Shown here: positions 4,193-35,853 of the stretch, one piece after another
Position numbering within the stretch: position 1 is the stretch's first letter
Layout: the number at the start of each line of letters is the position of its first letter
Notes under the pieces: generated by a model
What the model was told of the DNA's origin: nothing
Seen by the model: the letters and a program-made list of their open reading frames with translations, nothing else
Databases searched by the model: none
Made by a program: the position numbers and the translations under genes
Assembly (NCBI GenBank): GCA_002720975.1
Contig: PBIX01000026.1
Location: forward strand, 5,946 to 41,991
Direction: 5' to 3'
DNA length: 36,046 nucleotides
Origin: Planctomycetota bacterium
GTDB lineage: Bacteria > Planctomycetota > UBA1135 > GCA-002686595

Positions 4193-6748
4193 ATGCGCCT
4201 CCTCTCCCACCTCCTCCCCGGTCTGCTGCTAGTCGGCGGCCTCACCGCGGCGTCCGCACCAGCGACCCAGGACCTCTTCGACGACACGATCCTGCGCGAG
4301 GTTCGCCTCGACTTCATGGATTCGGACTGGTGGCAGAAACTCAAGCAGGGCTGGCCCAACGGTCCGGACATTCTCGCGGACCTGACCATCGACGGCATCG
4401 TCTACCAGGGCGTGGGCGTACGCATCAAAGGCAACAGCTCCTACTTCTTCCTCCCCCCAGGCTCCCAGAAGGTCTCACTCAACGTCACGGTGAACTTCAC
4501 CGATCCGCTCCTGAGGGTCTATGGAATGAAGACCCTGAACCTGAACAACGGCATCGAGGACCCCACCTTCTGCCGCGAGGTCACCTACCAGAATTTCATC
4601 TACGGCTACAGCCCCAATGGTCGCGGCAACCACGTCAAGCTGGTGCTCAACGGTAACGGCTGGGGCATCTATGAGAACATCCAGCAGTACAACAAGGACA
4701 TGCTGGAGGAGTTCTACGTGAACGAGGACGGCGCCCGCTTCAAATGTCCCAACAACCCCAACGGGCCGGGGCTGCGCTACAAGGGAGCCAACAAGTCGGC
4801 CTATTCCGGCGCCTACGAAATCCACGACGATGGCGATCTGACCGACCCCTGGCAGGTTCTGATCGACACATGCGACCGCATCACGAACGAACCACTGACC
4901 AACTACGACACGATCGACGACCAGTTCTCCATCGACCACGCCATGTGGACGGTGGCCCTGGAGAACCTCTTCATGGATGAGGACTCCTACATCTCCAAGG
5001 GCGCCGACTTTCACGTTTACTGGGATCTGCACGAGGGTCGCATGCACCTGCACCAGCACGATGGCAACGAGTCCTTCGGGGTGAGCTTCTTCGGCTGGCC
5101 GGGCGGCACCCTCTGGCAACTATCCCCCCTCCACAACAGTGGCGACGTGAACAAGCCGGTCCTCAGCCGCCTGTGGGGTATCCCCGAGGTCAAGCAGCGC
5201 TACCTGGCGCACCTGCGCACGATGCTCAACGGGGGCTTCGATTGGACGGGCGAAATGGAGGATCAGATCCTGGCCTACAAGGCCATGATCCAAGCCGAGG
5301 TCCTGGCGGACGACAAGAAGATCTACTCCGACCAGGACTTCCTGGACAACTTCACCCAGAACGTGGTCATCTCCGATGGTGCCGGAGGCACCATGACCGC
5401 GCCGGGTCTGCAGCTGTTCGTGGAGGGCCGGCGGTCATTCCTGTTGGCCCACCAGGCGGTCAAGAAGAAGGCTCCCGTCATCCCGGCCGTCTGGCACACC
5501 CCCGTGAACCCTTTGCCCGGCCAATCGACGCGCGTCATGGCCCGCGTCGCTGGTCCCGACAAGCCGGTGGGGCTGGTCAAGCTCTGGTACCAGCCGGCTC
5601 CGGGGCGCTACTCCCAGATACCCATGCTCGATGACGGGCAGAGTGGAGACGGCATCGCAGGGGATGGCCTGTACGCGGTCGACGTACCCTTCTCCGGGGG
5701 CATCGGACAGCGTGTGTCCTACTACGTCAGCGCTGCATCGGCGACGGCCAACGCGCCCATGATTTTCTCTCCCCTGCGCACCGAGTTCGCCCCCCTGACG
5801 CTGGCCTTCCAGTATGGCCAGAGCGGTGTGAAGATCACCGAGTACATGTACTCCGGCACAGACGGAGAGTTCCTGGAGTTGACCAACGTAACCTCCGCTG
5901 CCATCGACCTGACGGGCTGGAGCCTGGACGACGAGAGCGCGACCCCGGGCACGTTCGACTTGAGCCCGGTCGGCCCCCTGGCCGCAGGCGAGTCCATCGT
6001 GATTTCCGGGGTGGACCCCTCAGGATTCGCCAGCGCCTGGAATCTCGCGGGCACGCGTGTGTTCGGCCCGAACACCCTGGCCCCCCTGGGTCGCGATGAC
6101 ACCATCAATCTCTACGATGCTGGCGGCCAACTGGTGGAGCGCCTTATCTACGGTGACCAGGCCTTGCCTGGTAGCCCACGGGCCAAGGACCAGAGTGCAC
6201 AGGTGTGCCTTGAGGGCCTTGGAGCCGACAACGCCTATCGCTGGCAGTTGGCTCTCGACGGCGATGCTTTCGGGGCTTGGACTTCTGCGGGAGGCGACGT
6301 GGGCAGCCCGGGAACCTGGATCGCCGTGGACTGCCCGGGCCTTGGAGACGCCTACTGCACGGCCACGGCCAACTCCACGGGAGCACCTGCCGTGCTCGCG
6401 GCTGACGGCGACCCACGTGTGGCCCAGAACGATCTGGATCTGCTGTGCAGCTCCTTGCCACCCGGCAAGTTCGGCTACTTCATCATGTCCCAGACCCAGG
6501 ACTTCCGACCCCTGGTGGGCGGCGGGCAGGGCAACCTCTGCCTGGGCGGTGCCATCGTGCGCTTTGCCCAGGACGTCCAGCAGGCCGCATCCGATGGGAC
6601 GGCGAGCTTCTCACCGGACCTCTCGAACATACCCGGTGGAGTACTGATCGCCCCAGGTGAGCGCTGGAGCTTCCAGTTCTGGTACAGGGACTCCAACCCC
6701 GGAGCGACCTCGAACTTCTCCAACGGGGTGGAGATCGGATTCCAGTAG
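4193..6748 (+). CDS. Secreted CotH-kinase-like protein with lamin-tail domain
   Basis: Predicted exported protein of 851 residues. A signal peptide covers about 1-25 (hydrophobic LLPGLLLVGGLTAASA). A CotH-family region at about 30-420 resembles the spore-coat protein kinase CotH, with G-WGIYENIQQYNKDMLEEFY (about 156-175) and HQHDGNESFG (about 287-296) at the expected catalytic positions. A beta-rich middle segment covers about 430-540. A lamin-tail domain follows at about 546-655 (GEFLELTN, IDLTGWSLDD, INLYDAGG). The end (about 715-851) is a module with paired Cys and the segment WSFQFWYRD, ending FSNGVEIGF, like a recurring tail of planctomycete surface proteins as I remember it. Kinase activity is inferred from family only. 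It lies on the opposite strand between infC and rpmI and ends 21 bases from the infC stop. Confidence 0.85.
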   Translation: MRLLSHLLPGLLLVGGLTAASAPATQDLFDDTILREVRLDFMDSDWWQKLKQGWPNGPDILADLTIDGIVYQGVGVRIKGNSSYFFLPPGSQKVSLNVTVNFTDPLLRVYGMKTLNLNNGIEDPTFCREVTYQNFIYGYSPNGRGNHVKLVLNGNGWGIYENIQQYNKDMLEEFYVNEDGARFKCPNNPNGPGLRYKGANKSAYSGAYEIHDDGDLTDPWQVLIDTCDRITNEPLTNYDTIDDQFSIDHAMWTVALENLFMDEDSYISKGADFHVYWDLHEGRMHLHQHDGNESFGVSFFGWPGGTLWQLSPLHNSGDVNKPVLSRLWGIPEVKQRYLAHLRTMLNGGFDWTGEMEDQILAYKAMIQAEVLADDKKIYSDQDFLDNFTQNVVISDGAGGTMTAPGLQLFVEGRRSFLLAHQAVKKKAPVIPAVWHTPVNPLPGQSTRVMARVAGPDKPVGLVKLWYQPAPGRYSQIPMLDDGQSGDGIAGDGLYAVDVPFSGGIGQRVSYYVSAASATANAPMIFSPLRTEFAPLTLAFQYGQSGVKITEYMYSGTDGEFLELTNVTSAAIDLTGWSLDDESATPGTFDLSPVGPLAAGESIVISGVDPSGFASAWNLAGTRVFGPNTLAPLGRDDTINLYDAGGQLVERLIYGDQALPGSPRAKDQSAQVCLEGLGADNAYRWQLALDGDAFGAWTSAGGDVGSPGTWIAVDCPGLGDAYCTATANSTGAPAVLAADGDPRVAQNDLDLLCSSLPPGKFGYFIMSQTQDFRPLVGGGQGNLCLGGAIVRFAQDVQQAASDGTASFSPDLSNIPGGVLIAPGERWSFQFWYRDSNPGATSNFSNGVEIGFQ

Positions 6749-10004: not shown

Positions 10005-10005
<1 letters not shown>
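9577..10005 (-). CDS. atpC: F1Fo ATP synthase subunit epsilon
   Basis: Epsilon subunit of the F1 central stalk, which contacts the c-ring and regulates ATP hydrolysis. It has 142 residues, close to the usual 130-140. The N-terminal beta-sandwich is clear (LTLRVITPEKIV, FPALDGGMGVLPRHAPMVAAL, FISGGFAEV), followed by a helical C-terminal domain from about residue 88 rich in Ala and Arg. Its ATG shares one base with the atpD stop (TGATG). It is the last ATP synthase gene, followed by aspS. Confidence 0.96.
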
Positions 10006-12357
<2,352 letters not shown>

Positions 12358-12361
12358 GGGT

Positions 12362-13933
12362 TTAGGCCTGGATCTGCGCCTTGACCGCGGTGATGGCCCC
12401 GTCGAGGACCGCCTTGGTCTCGTCGGGGATGCCCTTCTTGGCCGTGGTGATCTGCTCGGCCACCTCGGGGTGGGAGTCGTTCACGTACTCGATCAGGGCG
12501 CGCTCGAACTCGCTCACCTGATTGACGGCCAGATCATCGAGAGCTCCTGTTGAGCCGGCGTACAGGATCACGACCTGGTCCGTCACCTTGACCGGCACGT
12601 ACTGGCCCTGCTTGAGAATCTCCACGAGGCGCTCCCCGCGAGTCAGTTTTGCTTGGGTGGCCGCGTCCAGGTCGGAGCCGAACTGGGCAAAGGCCTGCAG
12701 TTCGCGGAACTGAGCCAGGTCCAGACGCAGCGAGCCAGCCGTCTTCTTCATCGCCGGAATCTGTGCAGCGCCACCCACCCGCGACACCGAAATACCCGCG
12801 TTCACCGCGGGCCGGATACCGGAGTTGAACAGACTGGATTCCAGGAAAATCTGGCCATCCGTGATCGAGATCACGTTGGTGGGAATATAGGCGGAAACGT
12901 CGCCTTCTTGAGTCTCCACTACGGGCAGAGCGGTCAGAGTTCCCCCACCGGCCTTGAAGCGCGGGTTGACCTCGGGAGCGTTGTCCGCGAGCTTGGCCGC
13001 GCGTTCGAGAAGACGACTGTGCAGATTGAAGACGTCACCGGGGAAGGCCTCGCGTCCCGGGGGACGGCGCAGCAGCAACATCACCTGACGGTAAGCCAGA
13101 GCCTGCTTGTAGAGGTCGTCGTAGAAGATAGCCACGTGGCGGCCCTCGTCCCGGAAACGCTCGCCCATGGCGCAACCGCCGTAGCACGACAGGTACTGCA
13201 TGGAGGCTTCGTCAATGGCCGATGCCAAGACGACGATGGTGTAGGCCATGGCTCCGGCCTGCTCCAGGCGGCGCACAATGTCGACCACAGTGGACTGCTT
13301 TTGGCCCACGGCTACGTAGATGCAGATGACCTGCTCGGGATTGGTCGGGTCGCCACCACCAGTGTTGGCCTGGGACAGGATGGTGTCCACGATCAGGGCG
13401 GTCTTGCCCGTCTGGCGGTCACCGATGATCAGCTCACGCTGGCCGCGACCAATGGGGATCATGGCATCCACGGCCTTGATCCCGGTCTGCAGGGGCTGGT
13501 CCACGGGCTGGCGCTCCACCACGGAGGGGGCGTCCTGCTCAATGGGGCGCAGGTCGTCGTCGGTCGTGCCAAGCGGGCCCTTGCCGTCGACGGGATCGCC
13601 GAGGGCATTCACCACGCGACCGAGCAGCTGCGGGCCGGTCGGAACGGAGATGATGCGGCCCGTGGCCTTCACAGTATCCCCTTCACGAACCTTGGCCGCG
13701 TCGCCGAGCAGCACGCACCCTACGTTGTCCTCTTCGAGGTTCAGAGCAATGCCGCGCACGCCGCCGCCGAACTCGAGCAGCTCGTTCATCATGCAGTCGT
13801 CTAGGCCGTAGACGCGGGCCACGCCGTCACCCACGGAGAGCACGGTGCCCACGCTCTGCATACGGGTGTCGCCTTGGTAGTTCTCGATCTCTTTCTCGAG
13901 GATCGAAGTGACTTCAGCGGGTCGAAGGTCCAT
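12362..13933 (-). CDS. atpA: F1Fo ATP synthase subunit alpha
   Basis: Non-catalytic nucleotide-binding alpha subunit of F1, 523 residues (E. coli 513). The N-terminal segment that docks to delta reads [17 protein letters not shown]. The Walker A loop GDRQTGKT is at 171-178. The regions [27 protein letters not shown] and the C-terminal helical domain are all present. It starts at ATG 13933, 93 bases after atpH. Confidence 0.99.
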
Positions 13934-30750: not shown

Positions 30751-31707
30751 TCAGACCGTCGGGAAGCGACCCTCCACGGCCCCCATCCGGCGGAATTTCT
30801 CGCGGCGGTCCGCGACAAGCTGCTCGGGATCCACCCCCTCCAGCTCGTCCAGGTGTTCGAGGATCGAGTCGCCGAGGTTCTGGAAGACCACCTCGGGATC
30901 CCGGTGCGCGCCCCCCAGGGGTTCGGCCACCACGCCGTCGATGACCCCCAGCCGGGTGAGGTCCTTGGATGTCAACTTCAGGGCACTGGCAGCCTCGGGC
31001 GTCCGTGCTCCGTCCTTCCAGAGGATGGCCGCACAGCCCTCGGGACTGATCACCGAGTAGTAGGAGTACTGCAGCATCAGGACCCGGTCCCCCACGCCGA
31101 TGCCCAGGGCACCGCCGGAGCCTCCCTCGCCGATCACCACACACACAATGGGGACAGCCAGCTCGAACATGCCAAGAATGTTCTCGGCGATGGCGGCCGC
31201 CTGGCCGCGCTCCTCGGCGCCGATGCCCGGGTAGGCACCGGGCGTGTTGATCAGGGTGACGATGGGCAGCCCCAGCTTGGCTGCCAGGCGCATCTTGCGC
31301 AGGGCCTTGCGGTAGCCCTCGGGGTGGGCACAGCCGAAATTGGTCTCCAGGCGCTCAGGGGTGGTTTTTCCCTTGCGATGGCCCACGAGCATCAGGCGTC
31401 GCCCGCGCAGGGTGGCGAAGCCGGTCACGATGGCCCGGTCGTCGCCGTAGCTCTTGTCACCGTGGAGCTCGATGAACTCGTCGAACATGTGGTCGATGTA
31501 GTCCGAGGCCACGGGGCGCTCCGGGTGACGGGAAACATTGACCGACTCCCAGGGGTCCAGGTCGGAGTAGGTCTCGGCCAGGGCCGTCTCGATCTTGTTG
31601 CGCAGGGCGCCGATCTCCTTGGAGATGTCCAGATCGTTCTTCTGCGAGAGCTCGGTCAGCTCCGCCAGCTGCGCCTCCATGTCCCGGATGGGGGCCTCGA
31701 AGGCCAT
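30751..31707 (-). CDS. accA: Acetyl-CoA carboxylase carboxyltransferase subunit alpha
   Basis: Carboxyltransferase alpha subunit that, with AccD, moves CO2 from biotin to acetyl-CoA to form malonyl-CoA for fatty acid synthesis. It has 318 residues, the E. coli length being 319. The N-terminal helix (AQLAELTELSQKNDLDI) is followed by HGDKSYGDDRAIVTG, NTPGAYPGIGAEERGQA, GEGGSGGALGIGVGDRV and EGCAAILWKD. ATG 31707 (MAFEAPIRDME) is chosen on length; no Shine-Dalgarno is seen before it. Upstream in-frame starts (to 31890) give residues unlike the family. No accD is in the window. Confidence 0.96.
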   Translation of the reverse strand: MAFEAPIRDMEAQLAELTELSQKNDLDISKEIGALRNKIETALAETYSDLDPWESVNVSRHPERPVASDYIDHMFDEFIELHGDKSYGDDRAIVTGFATLRGRRLMLVGHRKGKTTPERLETNFGCAHPEGYRKALRKMRLAAKLGLPIVTLINTPGAYPGIGAEERGQAAAIAENILGMFELAVPIVCVVIGEGGSGGALGIGVGDRVLMLQYSYYSVISPEGCAAILWKDGARTPEAASALKLTSKDLTRLGVIDGVVAEPLGGAHRDPEVVFQNLGDSILEHLDELEGVDPEQLVADRREKFRRMGAVEGRFPTV

Positions 31708-32169
31708 CCCGGGCGAGGCGTCGGATTTACGGCGTTCCTCAGACAAGGTGATTCGCGTGGAGGGGAGCAGGAGGGGGCGGGGCCTGACGTGCACCATATT
31801 CGGGGACCGCGCCTGAGAAGGCAAGCCCAATGGACTGCACCGGCCGAAGATGCTCCACGGCACCCAGCGCGAAGCTGGGCACGCTTGCACGCCTTCTCGG
31901 ATGCCCTGCGGTTGGCGTTGGTAAGGTCAGGCTAGCTCACCGTGCTCGACTCAATCTCCGGGAGTCGCTTCCGGGTGCAACGGGCAGGTCAAATTTGGTC
32001 GCCCCACCCACAAAAGTGGCTGGGAGGGCTTTCGGTACACTCGCTCCTGAGCCCCCCCCGAACGTTTGGTCCAGCCACGGACGTCTGGAGTTCGTTCTTC
32101 AGTCCACCCATGATTGCCCTAGTTGAAACGGTGCCCACCCTTATCTCCTTAATCCCCTCCTGCACTGCC
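31708..32169. promoter_or_regulatory. Divergent accA / Tricorn-like protease intergenic region
   Basis: A 462-base stretch with no convincing gene. It must hold the promoters of accA (minus) and the protease (plus). TTGAAA at 32123 could be a -35 for the protease, but the nearest -10-like hexamer is too far (about 19-20 bases). An open frame from 31942 runs into the protease gene, but its residues do not look like protein before the signal peptide at 32170. Confidence 0.3.
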
Positions 32170-35100
32170 ATGAATACCCACTGCCGATCGTCGTTGCTCT
32201 CCCTCTTGGCAATCACCCTTTGTGCCGCCTCCCCCGGGCATGCCCAAGTGGGCCAAGCCGGCATGTTGCGTTATCCCGATGTCAGTCAAACTCAGATTGT
32301 GTTCGTCTACGCCAACGATCTCTGGCTGGTGGACCGTGCCGGTGGTTTGGCAACACCCTTGGCAAGCCCAGCGGGGGCCGAGCGCAACCCGCGCTTCAGC
32401 GCCGACGGAAAGACCATCGCCTTCAGCGGCAACTACGAAGGGGATAGCAACCTCTACACCATGAACGTGGGCGGGGGCATTCCTTTTCGAGTCACCCATC
32501 ACCCGGGTGGCGATCAGTTCACGGACTGGACCGCGGACGGGAGATTGGTGTTCTCCACCTCGGCGTTCACAGGACAGCGGAGAGCAGCGCAGATGTTCAC
32601 TGTGCCCGCCACGGGCGGACTGCCCACCAAAGTGTCCATTCCTTATGGTGCGAACGGCACCATCCGCGCCGATGGGCGCATGTTGGCCTACACCCCGAAC
32701 AGTCGGGACAATCGCAACTGGAAGCGCTATTTGGGGGGGACGGCCACGGACGTTTGGCTCTTCGATCTACAGGACAAGACCTCGCAAAGGGTGACTCATT
32801 GGGAGGGGACCGATAGTTTTCCGATGTGGCATGGGGATGACCTGTACTTCGTGTCGGATCGCGGAAGTGAGCAACGGCTCAACGTTTGGAAGTCCGACGC
32901 CCAGAGCGGCGAGCTCAGTCAAATCACGCGCTTCACCGATTTCGACGTGAAGTGGCCGGCGATTGGCCCCGGGGACAAGGGCCAGGGCGAGATCGTCTTT
33001 CAGAACAATTCCGGGCTGTTCCTGCTCGACCTCGGCAGCGGTCAGACCCGTCAGGTTTCGGTGAAAATCCCCGGTGCCCGCGAGTCGATTCGCCCGCGCA
33101 TGGTGGATGTGTCCGATGCGATCAGCGCCGGCGGTCTCTCGTCCACGGGCAAGCGCGTGGCCGTGGAGGCCCGCGGCGACATTTGGACCTTGCCCGCGGA
33201 TAAGGGCAAACCCCGTAACCTGACCCATTCGGATGGGGTTGCGGAGCGCGATCCTTCCTGGAGTCCGGATGGGCGTTGGGTGGCTTATTTTTCGGACGCC
33301 AGCGGCGAATACGAGTTGACCCTGACCCAATCCGACGGTCGCGGCGAGACGCGCCAGCTGACCCAGGACACGGAAGGCTACAAGTACCAGCCCGTCTGGT
33401 CGCCGAACTCCGAGCAGATCGCGTACAGCGACCGCTCGGGGACGATCTACTTGCACAACATCGAGGCCGCCACGACCACCCGCGTGGATCAACACGGCCG
33501 CGCGGAATGGGGAGTGGAACTGAATTGGTCCCACGACTCCCGTTGGCTCACATTCAGCACGCCTGGTGCCAGTGCGTTGGGGTCTTCGATCATGTTGTAC
33601 GACACGACTTCGGGGATCTTGGAGCGCGTGACCAGCGACATGTTCAGCGACTCGAATCCAGTGTTCGACCGCAAGGGGGACTACCTCTACTTCGCCAGCG
33701 TGCGCAACTTCAATGGTCAGCGTGGATCGGCCATCGACTCAAACTACGTGTATGAGAATGCCCAGGTACTCTTGGCTGTTCCCCTGCGCAAAGATGTGGA
33801 GTTCCCCTGGGCGGAAGAAAGCGATGAGGAGACCTGGGGCGAGGAGGACGAGGAAGATGGCGAGGAGCCGGGCAACGACGAGGATGACGGCGAGACGCAA
33901 GACCCCGATTCAGATTCGGACTCTGACGAAGAAGAAGAAGAAGACGAGCCCGCCGACGATGGTGTCTCCGGGGCATGGTCCGGTCAGCTGGATATTCCCG
34001 AGACGGGTTCCATCGACGTGCGCATGACGATCACGATGAGCGGTGGAACACTCTCCGGGACCATCAGCAGTGCGCTCGGCACCGCCACAATGACGGGCAC
34101 CCTCGACCTCAAGTCGGGTGAGTGCAGTGGAGACATCCACACCGATACAGGTATCACTATGCCTTTTACGGGCAAGCTCTCGGATGGCTCCCTCTCCTGG
34201 ACCATCGTCAGCCCTGACGGCAACGCCCGCATGACTTGCGACCGTGCCTCTCCCTCAAGCTCCGACGACGAGGCGGACGAGGACGAAGATGAACCCGCAA
34301 AAGTGGTCGAGATCGACATCGAGGGCTTCGAACGGCGTGCCCTGCAACTCCCGGTCAGCGCGGGCAGCTTCGGCAGCCTGGCGGTCAACCACAAGGGCCA
34401 ACTGCTCTACAGCCGACGGGGCAATGATGGTGGCATCAAGCTCTACGGCCTGACCGACGACGACCAAACCGAGAAGAGCGTCACCGGCGGAGGGGGCTTT
34501 AGCCTCTCGAGCGATGGCAAGAAGCTCTTGCTGTTGCGCGGCAGCGCGCCGTCCATCGGCAAGGCGGGGGAGAGTAGCTCCCCCAAGAACGTCAAGACCG
34601 ACGGCATGGACAGCTGGATCGATGCGCGCCAGGAATGGCCCCAAATCTACACGGATGCCTGGCGCCTGTTCCGGGACTACTTCTATGCAGAGAACATGCA
34701 CGGGGTCGATTGGAAAGCCGTGCACGATGCGTACCGCCCGATGATCGACTTCTGCGTGACGCGCAATGACGTGGACTACGTTCTGCGCGAGATCGTCTCT
34801 GAGCTGAACTGCGGGCATACGTACGTTCGCGGCGGTCCCATGGAGAGAGGGCCGCGGGTTGGCGTAGGCCTCTTGGGTTGCGACTACAGCTTGGAGGACG
34901 GTGCCTACCGCATCACCAAGATCATCGAAGGGGGAGTTTGGGACGCGGATGCCCGCGGTCCCCTGAGCAAGACCGGAGTGGACGTTCACGAGGGCGACTA
35001 TCTCCTGGCGGTGGACGGCGTCCCGATGGATACCTCCGTCGACCCCTGGGCCGCCTTCGTGGGCAAGGGAGGCCAGGCCGTCGAACTGACGGTTTCGAGC

Positions 35101-35853
35101 GCACCGATTCTGGACGACCAGGCACGCCGAGTACGGGTCAAGACGCTCACGAGCGAGAGCAGCTTGCGCTACAGAAACTGGATTGAGACCAACCGAGCCA
35201 CAGTGGAGAAGGACTCCGGAGGCCGCGTGGGTTACATCTACGTGCCCGACACGGGCTCCCGCGGCCGTAATGACTTCTTTCGCCAACTCTACGGACAGGC
35301 GCACCTGGATGCCTTGATCGTGGACGAGCGTTGGAACGGTGGCGGCTCCTTCCCCAACCGCGAGATCGAGGCACTCAACCGTCCGCGCACGAACTACTGG
35401 GGGCGCCGTTGGGGCATGAGCTGGGCCACTCCCCATGACAGCCACCAGGGCCCCAAGTGCATGCTGATCAACCGCGACGCAGGTTCCGGTGGGGATATGT
35501 TCCCGTACCTGTTCCGTCAGGCCGGATTAGGCAAGTTGATCGGCACGCGCACCTGGGGCGGCCTGGTGGGCTACTCCGGGAGCCCGTCATTGATCGACGG
35601 CGCGACTTTGGCCATCCCTTCCTTTGGTTTCTTTGAGCTGGATGGAACCTGGGGTGTCGAAGGCTACGGCGTCGCCCCGGACATCGAGGTATTGGACGAC
35701 CCTGCACTGATGCAGGACGGTGCCGATCCTCAACTGGCCAAGGCCATCGAGCAGATGCTCTTGGAGCTGAGCACGGCGCGGGCCTACACGCCGCCCGCAC
35801 GTCCGGCCAACCCGGATCGCACGGGCATGGGGGCAGCAGAGCAGGATCGCTAG
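32170..35853 (+). CDS. Tricorn-like exported peptidase (S41) with inserted domain
   Basis: A 1227-residue protein of the Tricorn peptidase family. A signal peptide covers about 1-27 (LLSLLAITLCAASPGHAQ). Beta-propeller repeats follow from about 35 to 545 (AERNPRFSADGKTIAFSG, RDPSWSPDGRWVAYFS). An acidic linker runs from 549 to 597, then an extra beta-rich domain at about 598-693 (GAWSGQLDIPETGSIDVRMT), then a second acidic linker (699-708). The end of the second propeller, a PDZ domain (about 895-995) and the S41 catalytic core follow. Likely catalytic residues are His883 (ELNCGHTYV), Ser1106 (NRDAGSGGD) and Glu1164 (WGVEGYGVAPDIEV). ATG 32170 is chosen by the signal peptide. A proteolytic role in the periplasm is inferred. 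Confidence 0.9.
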   Translation: MNTHCRSSLLSLLAITLCAASPGHAQVGQAGMLRYPDVSQTQIVFVYANDLWLVDRAGGLATPLASPAGAERNPRFSADGKTIAFSGNYEGDSNLYTMNVGGGIPFRVTHHPGGDQFTDWTADGRLVFSTSAFTGQRRAAQMFTVPATGGLPTKVSIPYGANGTIRADGRMLAYTPNSRDNRNWKRYLGGTATDVWLFDLQDKTSQRVTHWEGTDSFPMWHGDDLYFVSDRGSEQRLNVWKSDAQSGELSQITRFTDFDVKWPAIGPGDKGQGEIVFQNNSGLFLLDLGSGQTRQVSVKIPGARESIRPRMVDVSDAISAGGLSSTGKRVAVEARGDIWTLPADKGKPRNLTHSDGVAERDPSWSPDGRWVAYFSDASGEYELTLTQSDGRGETRQLTQDTEGYKYQPVWSPNSEQIAYSDRSGTIYLHNIEAATTTRVDQHGRAEWGVELNWSHDSRWLTFSTPGASALGSSIMLYDTTSGILERVTSDMFSDSNPVFDRKGDYLYFASVRNFNGQRGSAIDSNYVYENAQVLLAVPLRKDVEFPWAEESDEETWGEEDEEDGEEPGNDEDDGETQDPDSDSDSDEEEEEDEPADDGVSGAWSGQLDIPETGSIDVRMTITMSGGTLSGTISSALGTATMTGTLDLKSGECSGDIHTDTGITMPFTGKLSDGSLSWTIVSPDGNARMTCDRASPSSSDDEADEDEDEPAKVVEIDIEGFERRALQLPVSAGSFGSLAVNHKGQLLYSRRGNDGGIKLYGLTDDDQTEKSVTGGGGFSLSSDGKKLLLLRGSAPSIGKAGESSSPKNVKTDGMDSWIDARQEWPQIYTDAWRLFRDYFYAENMHGVDWKAVHDAYRPMIDFCVTRNDVDYVLREIVSELNCGHTYVRGGPMERGPRVGVGLLGCDYSLEDGAYRITKIIEGGVWDADARGPLSKTGVDVHEGDYLLAVDGVPMDTSVDPWAAFVGKGGQAVELTVSSAPILDDQARRVRVKTLTSESSLRYRNWIETNRATVEKDSGGRVGYIYVPDTGSRGRNDFFRQLYGQAHLDALIVDERWNGGGSFPNREIEALNRPRTNYWGRRWGMSWATPHDSHQGPKCMLINRDAGSGGDMFPYLFRQAGLGKLIGTRTWGGLVGYSGSPSLIDGATLAIPSFGFFELDGTWGVEGYGVAPDIEVLDDPALMQDGADPQLAKAIEQMLLELSTARAYTPPARPANPDRTGMGAAEQDR

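Follow-up and report, generated by a model that had tools for sequence, protein, structure and literature searches.

The best solved relative of the protease described here is the Tricorn protease of Thermoplasma acidophilum (PDB 1k32, 1n6d; phmmer E 1.8e-83 for 1n6d), a peptidase of family S41 in which two propellers are followed by Tricorn_C1, PDZ and S41 domains. The second described system that is relevant to this locus is the calycin superfamily (lipocalins, fatty-acid-binding proteins and avidins), eight-stranded barrels in which a first-strand Trp latched by a last-strand Arg or Lys is the structural signature (PMC2954199). In the window, that is, the whole stretch of 36,046 nucleotides that was analysed, a predicted barrel of the calycin type was found inserted into a protease of the Tricorn type.

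The protease gene is located at 32170-35853 (+), starts with the ATG at 32170 and encodes 1227 amino acids with Pfam matches to PD40, Tricorn_C1, PDZ_Tricorn and Peptidase_S41. The first (beta6-like) propeller and the N-terminal part of the second (beta7-like) propeller occupy residues 32-548 (32263-33813, +), as judged by PD40 repeats, model strands and the alignment of Thermoplasma Tricorn up to chain position 520. The propeller resumes at residues 713-800 (34306-34569, +), where Thermoplasma Tricorn is aligned again from chain position 538, and the VEIDIEGFERR segment at this point is kept in homologues with and without the inserted domain. The Tricorn_C1 domain (residues 820-876; 34627-34797, +; PF14684, E 2.5e-20), the PDZ_Tricorn domain (residues 900-990; 34867-35139, +; PF14685, E 2.1e-25) and the S41 peptidase domain (residues 1019-1174; 35224-35691, +; PF03572, E 6e-18) follow the propellers in the same order as in Thermoplasma Tricorn, and the predicted model of the whole protein matched 1k32 with E 3.6e-57 and a TM score of 0.87 by target length. 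The candidate catalytic residues H883, at the C1/PDZ junction, S1106 and E1164 correspond to the TSH, AGSDGD and VENYG motifs of Thermoplasma Tricorn. Since these residues are aligned with the Tricorn active site and are invariant among 23 homologues, the protease looks catalytically intact. The two enzymes differ in that the Ser beside the catalytic His of Thermoplasma Tricorn is replaced by Gly and that, unlike Thermoplasma Tricorn, the window protease begins with an apparent Sec signal peptide (MNTHCRSSLLSLLAITLCAASPGHA, ending before Q; judged by eye).

Elsewhere in the window, an 851-aa frame at 4193-6748 (+) encodes another modular protein, in which a CotH kinase domain is combined with a Lamin Tail Domain. 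The segments at 10005-13933 (-) and 30751-31890 (-) belong to a housekeeping context with ATP synthase alpha/beta-type, tRNA synthetase and arginine biosynthesis genes, and the frame adjoining the protease reads by eye like acetyl-CoA carboxylase alpha. No link between these neighbouring housekeeping genes and the protease was seen in the window.

Where Thermoplasma Tricorn has 17 residues between the two parts of the second propeller, there are 164 in the window protein. A preliminary description of this DNA had placed here a compact Thr/Gly/Ser-rich segment between two acidic stretches, and its open frame, numbering and motifs were all recovered (ECSGD at 651, MTCDR at 688 and VEIDIEGFERR at 713, with DDGVSG from residue 596). 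Residues 549-597 are 65% Asp/Glu and 84% Asp, Glu, Gly, Ser or Asn, residues 699-708 are 90% acidic, and in residues 598-693 Thr/Gly/Ser make up 45% and acidic residues 10%. The best limits are slightly refined, with acidic linker 1 at residues 549-595 (33814-33954, +; 65% Asp/Glu), the domain at residues 596-694 (33955-34251, +) and acidic linker 2 at residues 695-712 (34252-34305, +). The acidic stretch is far beyond chance, as the richest 49-residue stretch holds 32 Asp/Glu, whereas 1000 shuffles gave at most 20 and the rest of the protein at most 11. Having just an acidic or charged loop is nevertheless usual in this family, so linker 1 is nothing special and it is the domain within the loop that is.

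Structure prediction with AlphaFold2, using 46 homologous copies as the alignment, gave eight strands for residues 596-694 with pLDDT 95.4 and pTM 0.84. In the model of the whole protein (1200 residues, 23 sequences in the alignment, mean pLDDT 78.7), residues 551-594 and 696-708 have pLDDT below 50, so that linkers of 47 and 18 residues are predicted to be disordered, and the eight strands between them persist. The segment 598-693 is thus not predicted to be disordered, and the earlier suggestion of a discrete all-beta fold is borne out by the models. Residues 596-694 are predicted to be an autonomous domain, able to fold by itself and attached to the propeller as a tethered unit. In the Foldseek comparison with the PDB, the best E-values were obtained for fatty-acid-binding proteins (3.9e-4, TM 0.57), with retinol-binding proteins also among the best, and TM scores with these two groups were 0.55-0.64. 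By query length, the highest TM scores were those of the designed barrel 6czg (0.80), a domain of quinohemoprotein amine dehydrogenase, 1jju (0.79), and Cap15, 7n34 (0.75).

The domain is called calycin-like because of its predicted fold, an eight-stranded antiparallel up-and-down barrel, together with the latch residues read from its sequence, G601-x-W603 in strand 1 and R692 in strand 8. Among the copies compared, Gly at 601 is conserved in 107/107 and Trp at 603 in 104/107; at position 692, 103/105 have Arg or Lys. Unlike the known calycins, the domain is shorter and is inserted into a loop rather than free-standing, and no significant sequence match to the Pfam or PDB representatives of named calycin families (lipocalin, FABP, avidin) was obtained. 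The window domain has no match in Pfam, where the best E-value among 46 members was 0.0024 (GH43_C), and the best hit of a profile search against the PDB reached only E 0.12; a streptavidin-like resemblance in the same search (E 0.25 or worse) is read as a lead on the fold.

Several candidate relatives were considered and rejected. The barrel of the quinohemoprotein amine dehydrogenase alpha subunit (PF14930, 1jju) shares 24% identity with the domain over 103 columns of the structural match, and planctomycete copies of PF14930 also have GxW at the start and Arg at the end. A common origin was not supported, with an hhalign probability of 9.4% over 32 columns; no PF14930 match was found in the window's own genome. 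Kinship to DUF3471, which adjoins a copy of the domain in L204, was given a probability of 0.2%. The plant LRR-receptor matches of a raw sequence search (E 2e-10) consist of many weak overlapping stretches with a best single E of 0.7, and are compositional. The fold as such is already known; the domain family itself is absent from Pfam (2025) and NCBIfam (2026), and no description of the insert or the domain was found in the open-access literature.

To place the insertion in the protein family, 113 Tricorn sequences were compared, including 79 loci with named organisms. The domain is present in 53/113 and absent in 60/113, and it is invariably found in one and the same loop, which by our own reading of the strand order in sequence and model follows the third strand and precedes the outer strand of a late second-propeller blade. 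In the domain-less Tricorns the site is occupied by a charged low-complexity loop, and nearly all Tricorn homologues in the genomes of 61 relatives have just 50-110 charged residues there. A diverged domain hidden in the long empty loops was rejected, since all of them read by eye as low-complexity Lys/Glu/Asp/Pro sequence. The earlier proposal of an insertion into a second-propeller loop therefore holds, and an integral propeller blade common to all homologues is contradicted by the 60/113 Tricorns and Thermoplasma Tricorn that have the site without the domain.

On a tree of the Tricorn core built without the loop, at least 10 changes between presence and absence were counted, of which 7 are forced by well-supported branches; this is a quick LG+G4 tree with SH-aLRT support only, and the metagenome bins in it are possibly contaminated. 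Domain and core distances among Tricorns are correlated (Mantel r 0.58 with two distant rows excluded; 0/2000 permutations as high), indicating long retention of the domain in many lineages.

Some Tricorns deserve separate mention. A distant subfamily (L074, L081, L079 and L083; about 25-29% identity) has the domain at the corresponding loop, as checked for L074 and L081, which suggests an independent or very old insertion. In L159, a bin labelled UBP7, two adjacent tandem Tricorn paralogues (frames of 1107 and 1158 aa) are both domain-less. The Tricorns of L098, L100, L104 and L111, whose bins carry the labels Chthonomonas, Verrucomicrobia or Kuenenia, group inside sequences of Planctomycetota; either these labels may be wrong or the genes may have been transferred.

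The rate of sequence change differs sharply between the domain and its host. In comparisons of the window protein with three congeners or near relatives, dN/dS was 0.42-0.67 for the domain and 0.07-0.10 for the protease core at similar dS, so that within the genus the domain evolves about 6-8 times faster than the protease. When inward positions were assigned by strand alternation, 6/37 inward positions were variable, all of them Ile/Leu/Val/Met swaps, compared to 15/35 outward and 11/27 loop positions. Inward changes being few and conservative and outward changes many, the barrel is maintained even as its surface, rich in Ser/Thr, diverges. Hydrophobic residues occupy the inward positions, and no conserved polar ligand residue was found among them.

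Two other ideas in the preliminary description fared less well. A conserved disulphide between C652 and C690 is not supported by the 107 copies, in which position 652 is normally Leu, Phe, Val or Ile and position 690 normally Ala or Gly; only the first Cys is found in L066 and L072, both positions face inward, and from the alignment the two cysteines are read as lineage-specific. The domain itself is unlikely to bind calcium, given its composition (10% acidic) and the lack of an EF-hand or other Pfam match. As also proposed there, the domain may bind a substrate or the cell surface.

The suggestion that the domain recurs as a GxWxG-type module in other secreted hydrolases was supported by profile search. 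Besides Tricorns, the profile matches VPS10/sortilin-like BNR proteins with PDZ domains, M28 peptidases, with two tandem copies, and amidohydrolases of Planctomycetota, in which the homologous domain is terminal or lies between catalytic domains rather than in a propeller loop. With a wider profile at E <= 1e-4, the domain was detected in 154/392 Planctomycetota genomes (39%), with five copies in the window's own genome. One of these is a second copy in the C-terminal part of a VPS10/BNR and PDZ protein (L165:1-3090, contig G000:C110), and a third, more diverged one follows an amidohydrolase fragment on its C-terminal side (L166, G000:C63). Three tandem copies were observed in a 1594-residue VPS10/BNR-PDZ protein with EF hands (L168:1069-5850, -, in G405). 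A 364-residue protein in which two copies stand in tandem without any further Pfam domain (L205:1012-2103, +, in a bin labelled Verrucomicrobia) is possibly a free-standing form of the family. Among genomes labelled as other phyla, 4/14 have copies, which sit with beta-lactamase, GH62/malectin/esterase or 3-keto-disaccharide hydrolase domains, and several of these bin labels look doubtful. The nearest neighbour of a copy belongs to the same host class for 58/60 Tricorn and 17/18 amidohydrolase copies, and since copies group by host class, transfer between protein classes appears to be old rather than frequent.

Because the same barrel occurs in several unrelated secreted hydrolases of the phylum, the domain looks like a reusable accessory module. 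The reading that we favour, with moderate confidence, is a mobile, flexibly tethered calycin-like accessory domain in a second-propeller loop of a secreted Tricorn-type protease, probably with a role in recognition or adhesion, which is the simplest role for a self-folding unit on a flexible tether that is reused on unrelated secreted hydrolases. By analogy, the barrel would act as the binding modules appended to other secreted hydrolases do: its outer surface, which is polar, variable and rich in Ser/Thr, would touch a partner, which may be a protein substrate, a component of the envelope or some other secreted protein, and this contact would keep or steer the protease at the site. Catalysis would remain in the S41 domain, and any effect of the domain on substrate entry is, like the binding role, inferred. 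The rapid change of the surface fits variable partners and also fits a neutral spacer, and fast surface evolution together with repeated loss argues against one conserved, essential ligand. A wider version, tentative and rather unlikely, is that this uncatalogued calycin-type family acts throughout Planctomycetota as a general add-on, to secreted hydrolases as well as to repeat proteins, much as carbohydrate-binding modules or dockerins do, and targets its hosts to a shared surface or matrix component.

Second in our ranking, and unlikely overall, is the explanation that the domain amounts to neutral, or almost neutral, decoration: a spacer able to fold by itself would enter a disordered loop that tolerates it and later be lost, and would stay folded only because misfolded insertions harm the protease. 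The patchy presence on the core tree, the dN/dS of the domain with conservation limited to the interior, and the relatives that thrive with an empty loop all agree with this explanation, but a mere decoration would not readily account for retention in several classes of secreted enzymes and in so many of the sampled genomes, sometimes in tandem, or for the correlation of domain and core distances.

Less likely still are a gate and a carrier of small molecules. The second propeller of Thermoplasma Tricorn is regarded as the substrate route, and the location of the insert in this propeller would suit a gate or assembly module, with the barrel over the propeller opening or between subunits, limiting the entry of polypeptides or controlling the oligomer; this is improbable, however, as disordered linkers of this length are better suited to a mobile tether than to a fixed gate and the domain also occurs in M28 peptidases and amidohydrolases, proteins without such a channel. 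That the barrel encloses a small hydrophobic ligand, as fatty-acid-binding proteins do, is very improbable: this would agree with the best Foldseek E-values and the hydrophobic inward positions, but the barrel has about 99 residues compared to about 130 in fatty-acid- and retinol-binding proteins and low TM scores to them, the shorter designed barrel 6czg fits best, and the tightly hydrophobic interior holds no conserved polar ligand residue.

The domain occurs in at least four classes of secreted enzymes, and a name for the family would allow annotation of one to several domains per genome. Its recurrence also offers a testable way into the question of how secreted proteases and amidohydrolases are positioned by planctomycetes. 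For Tricorns, it means that one specific propeller loop repeatedly gains and loses a folded module, and this loop therefore provides natural pairs of proteases that differ in the presence of the domain and whose functions can be compared cleanly.
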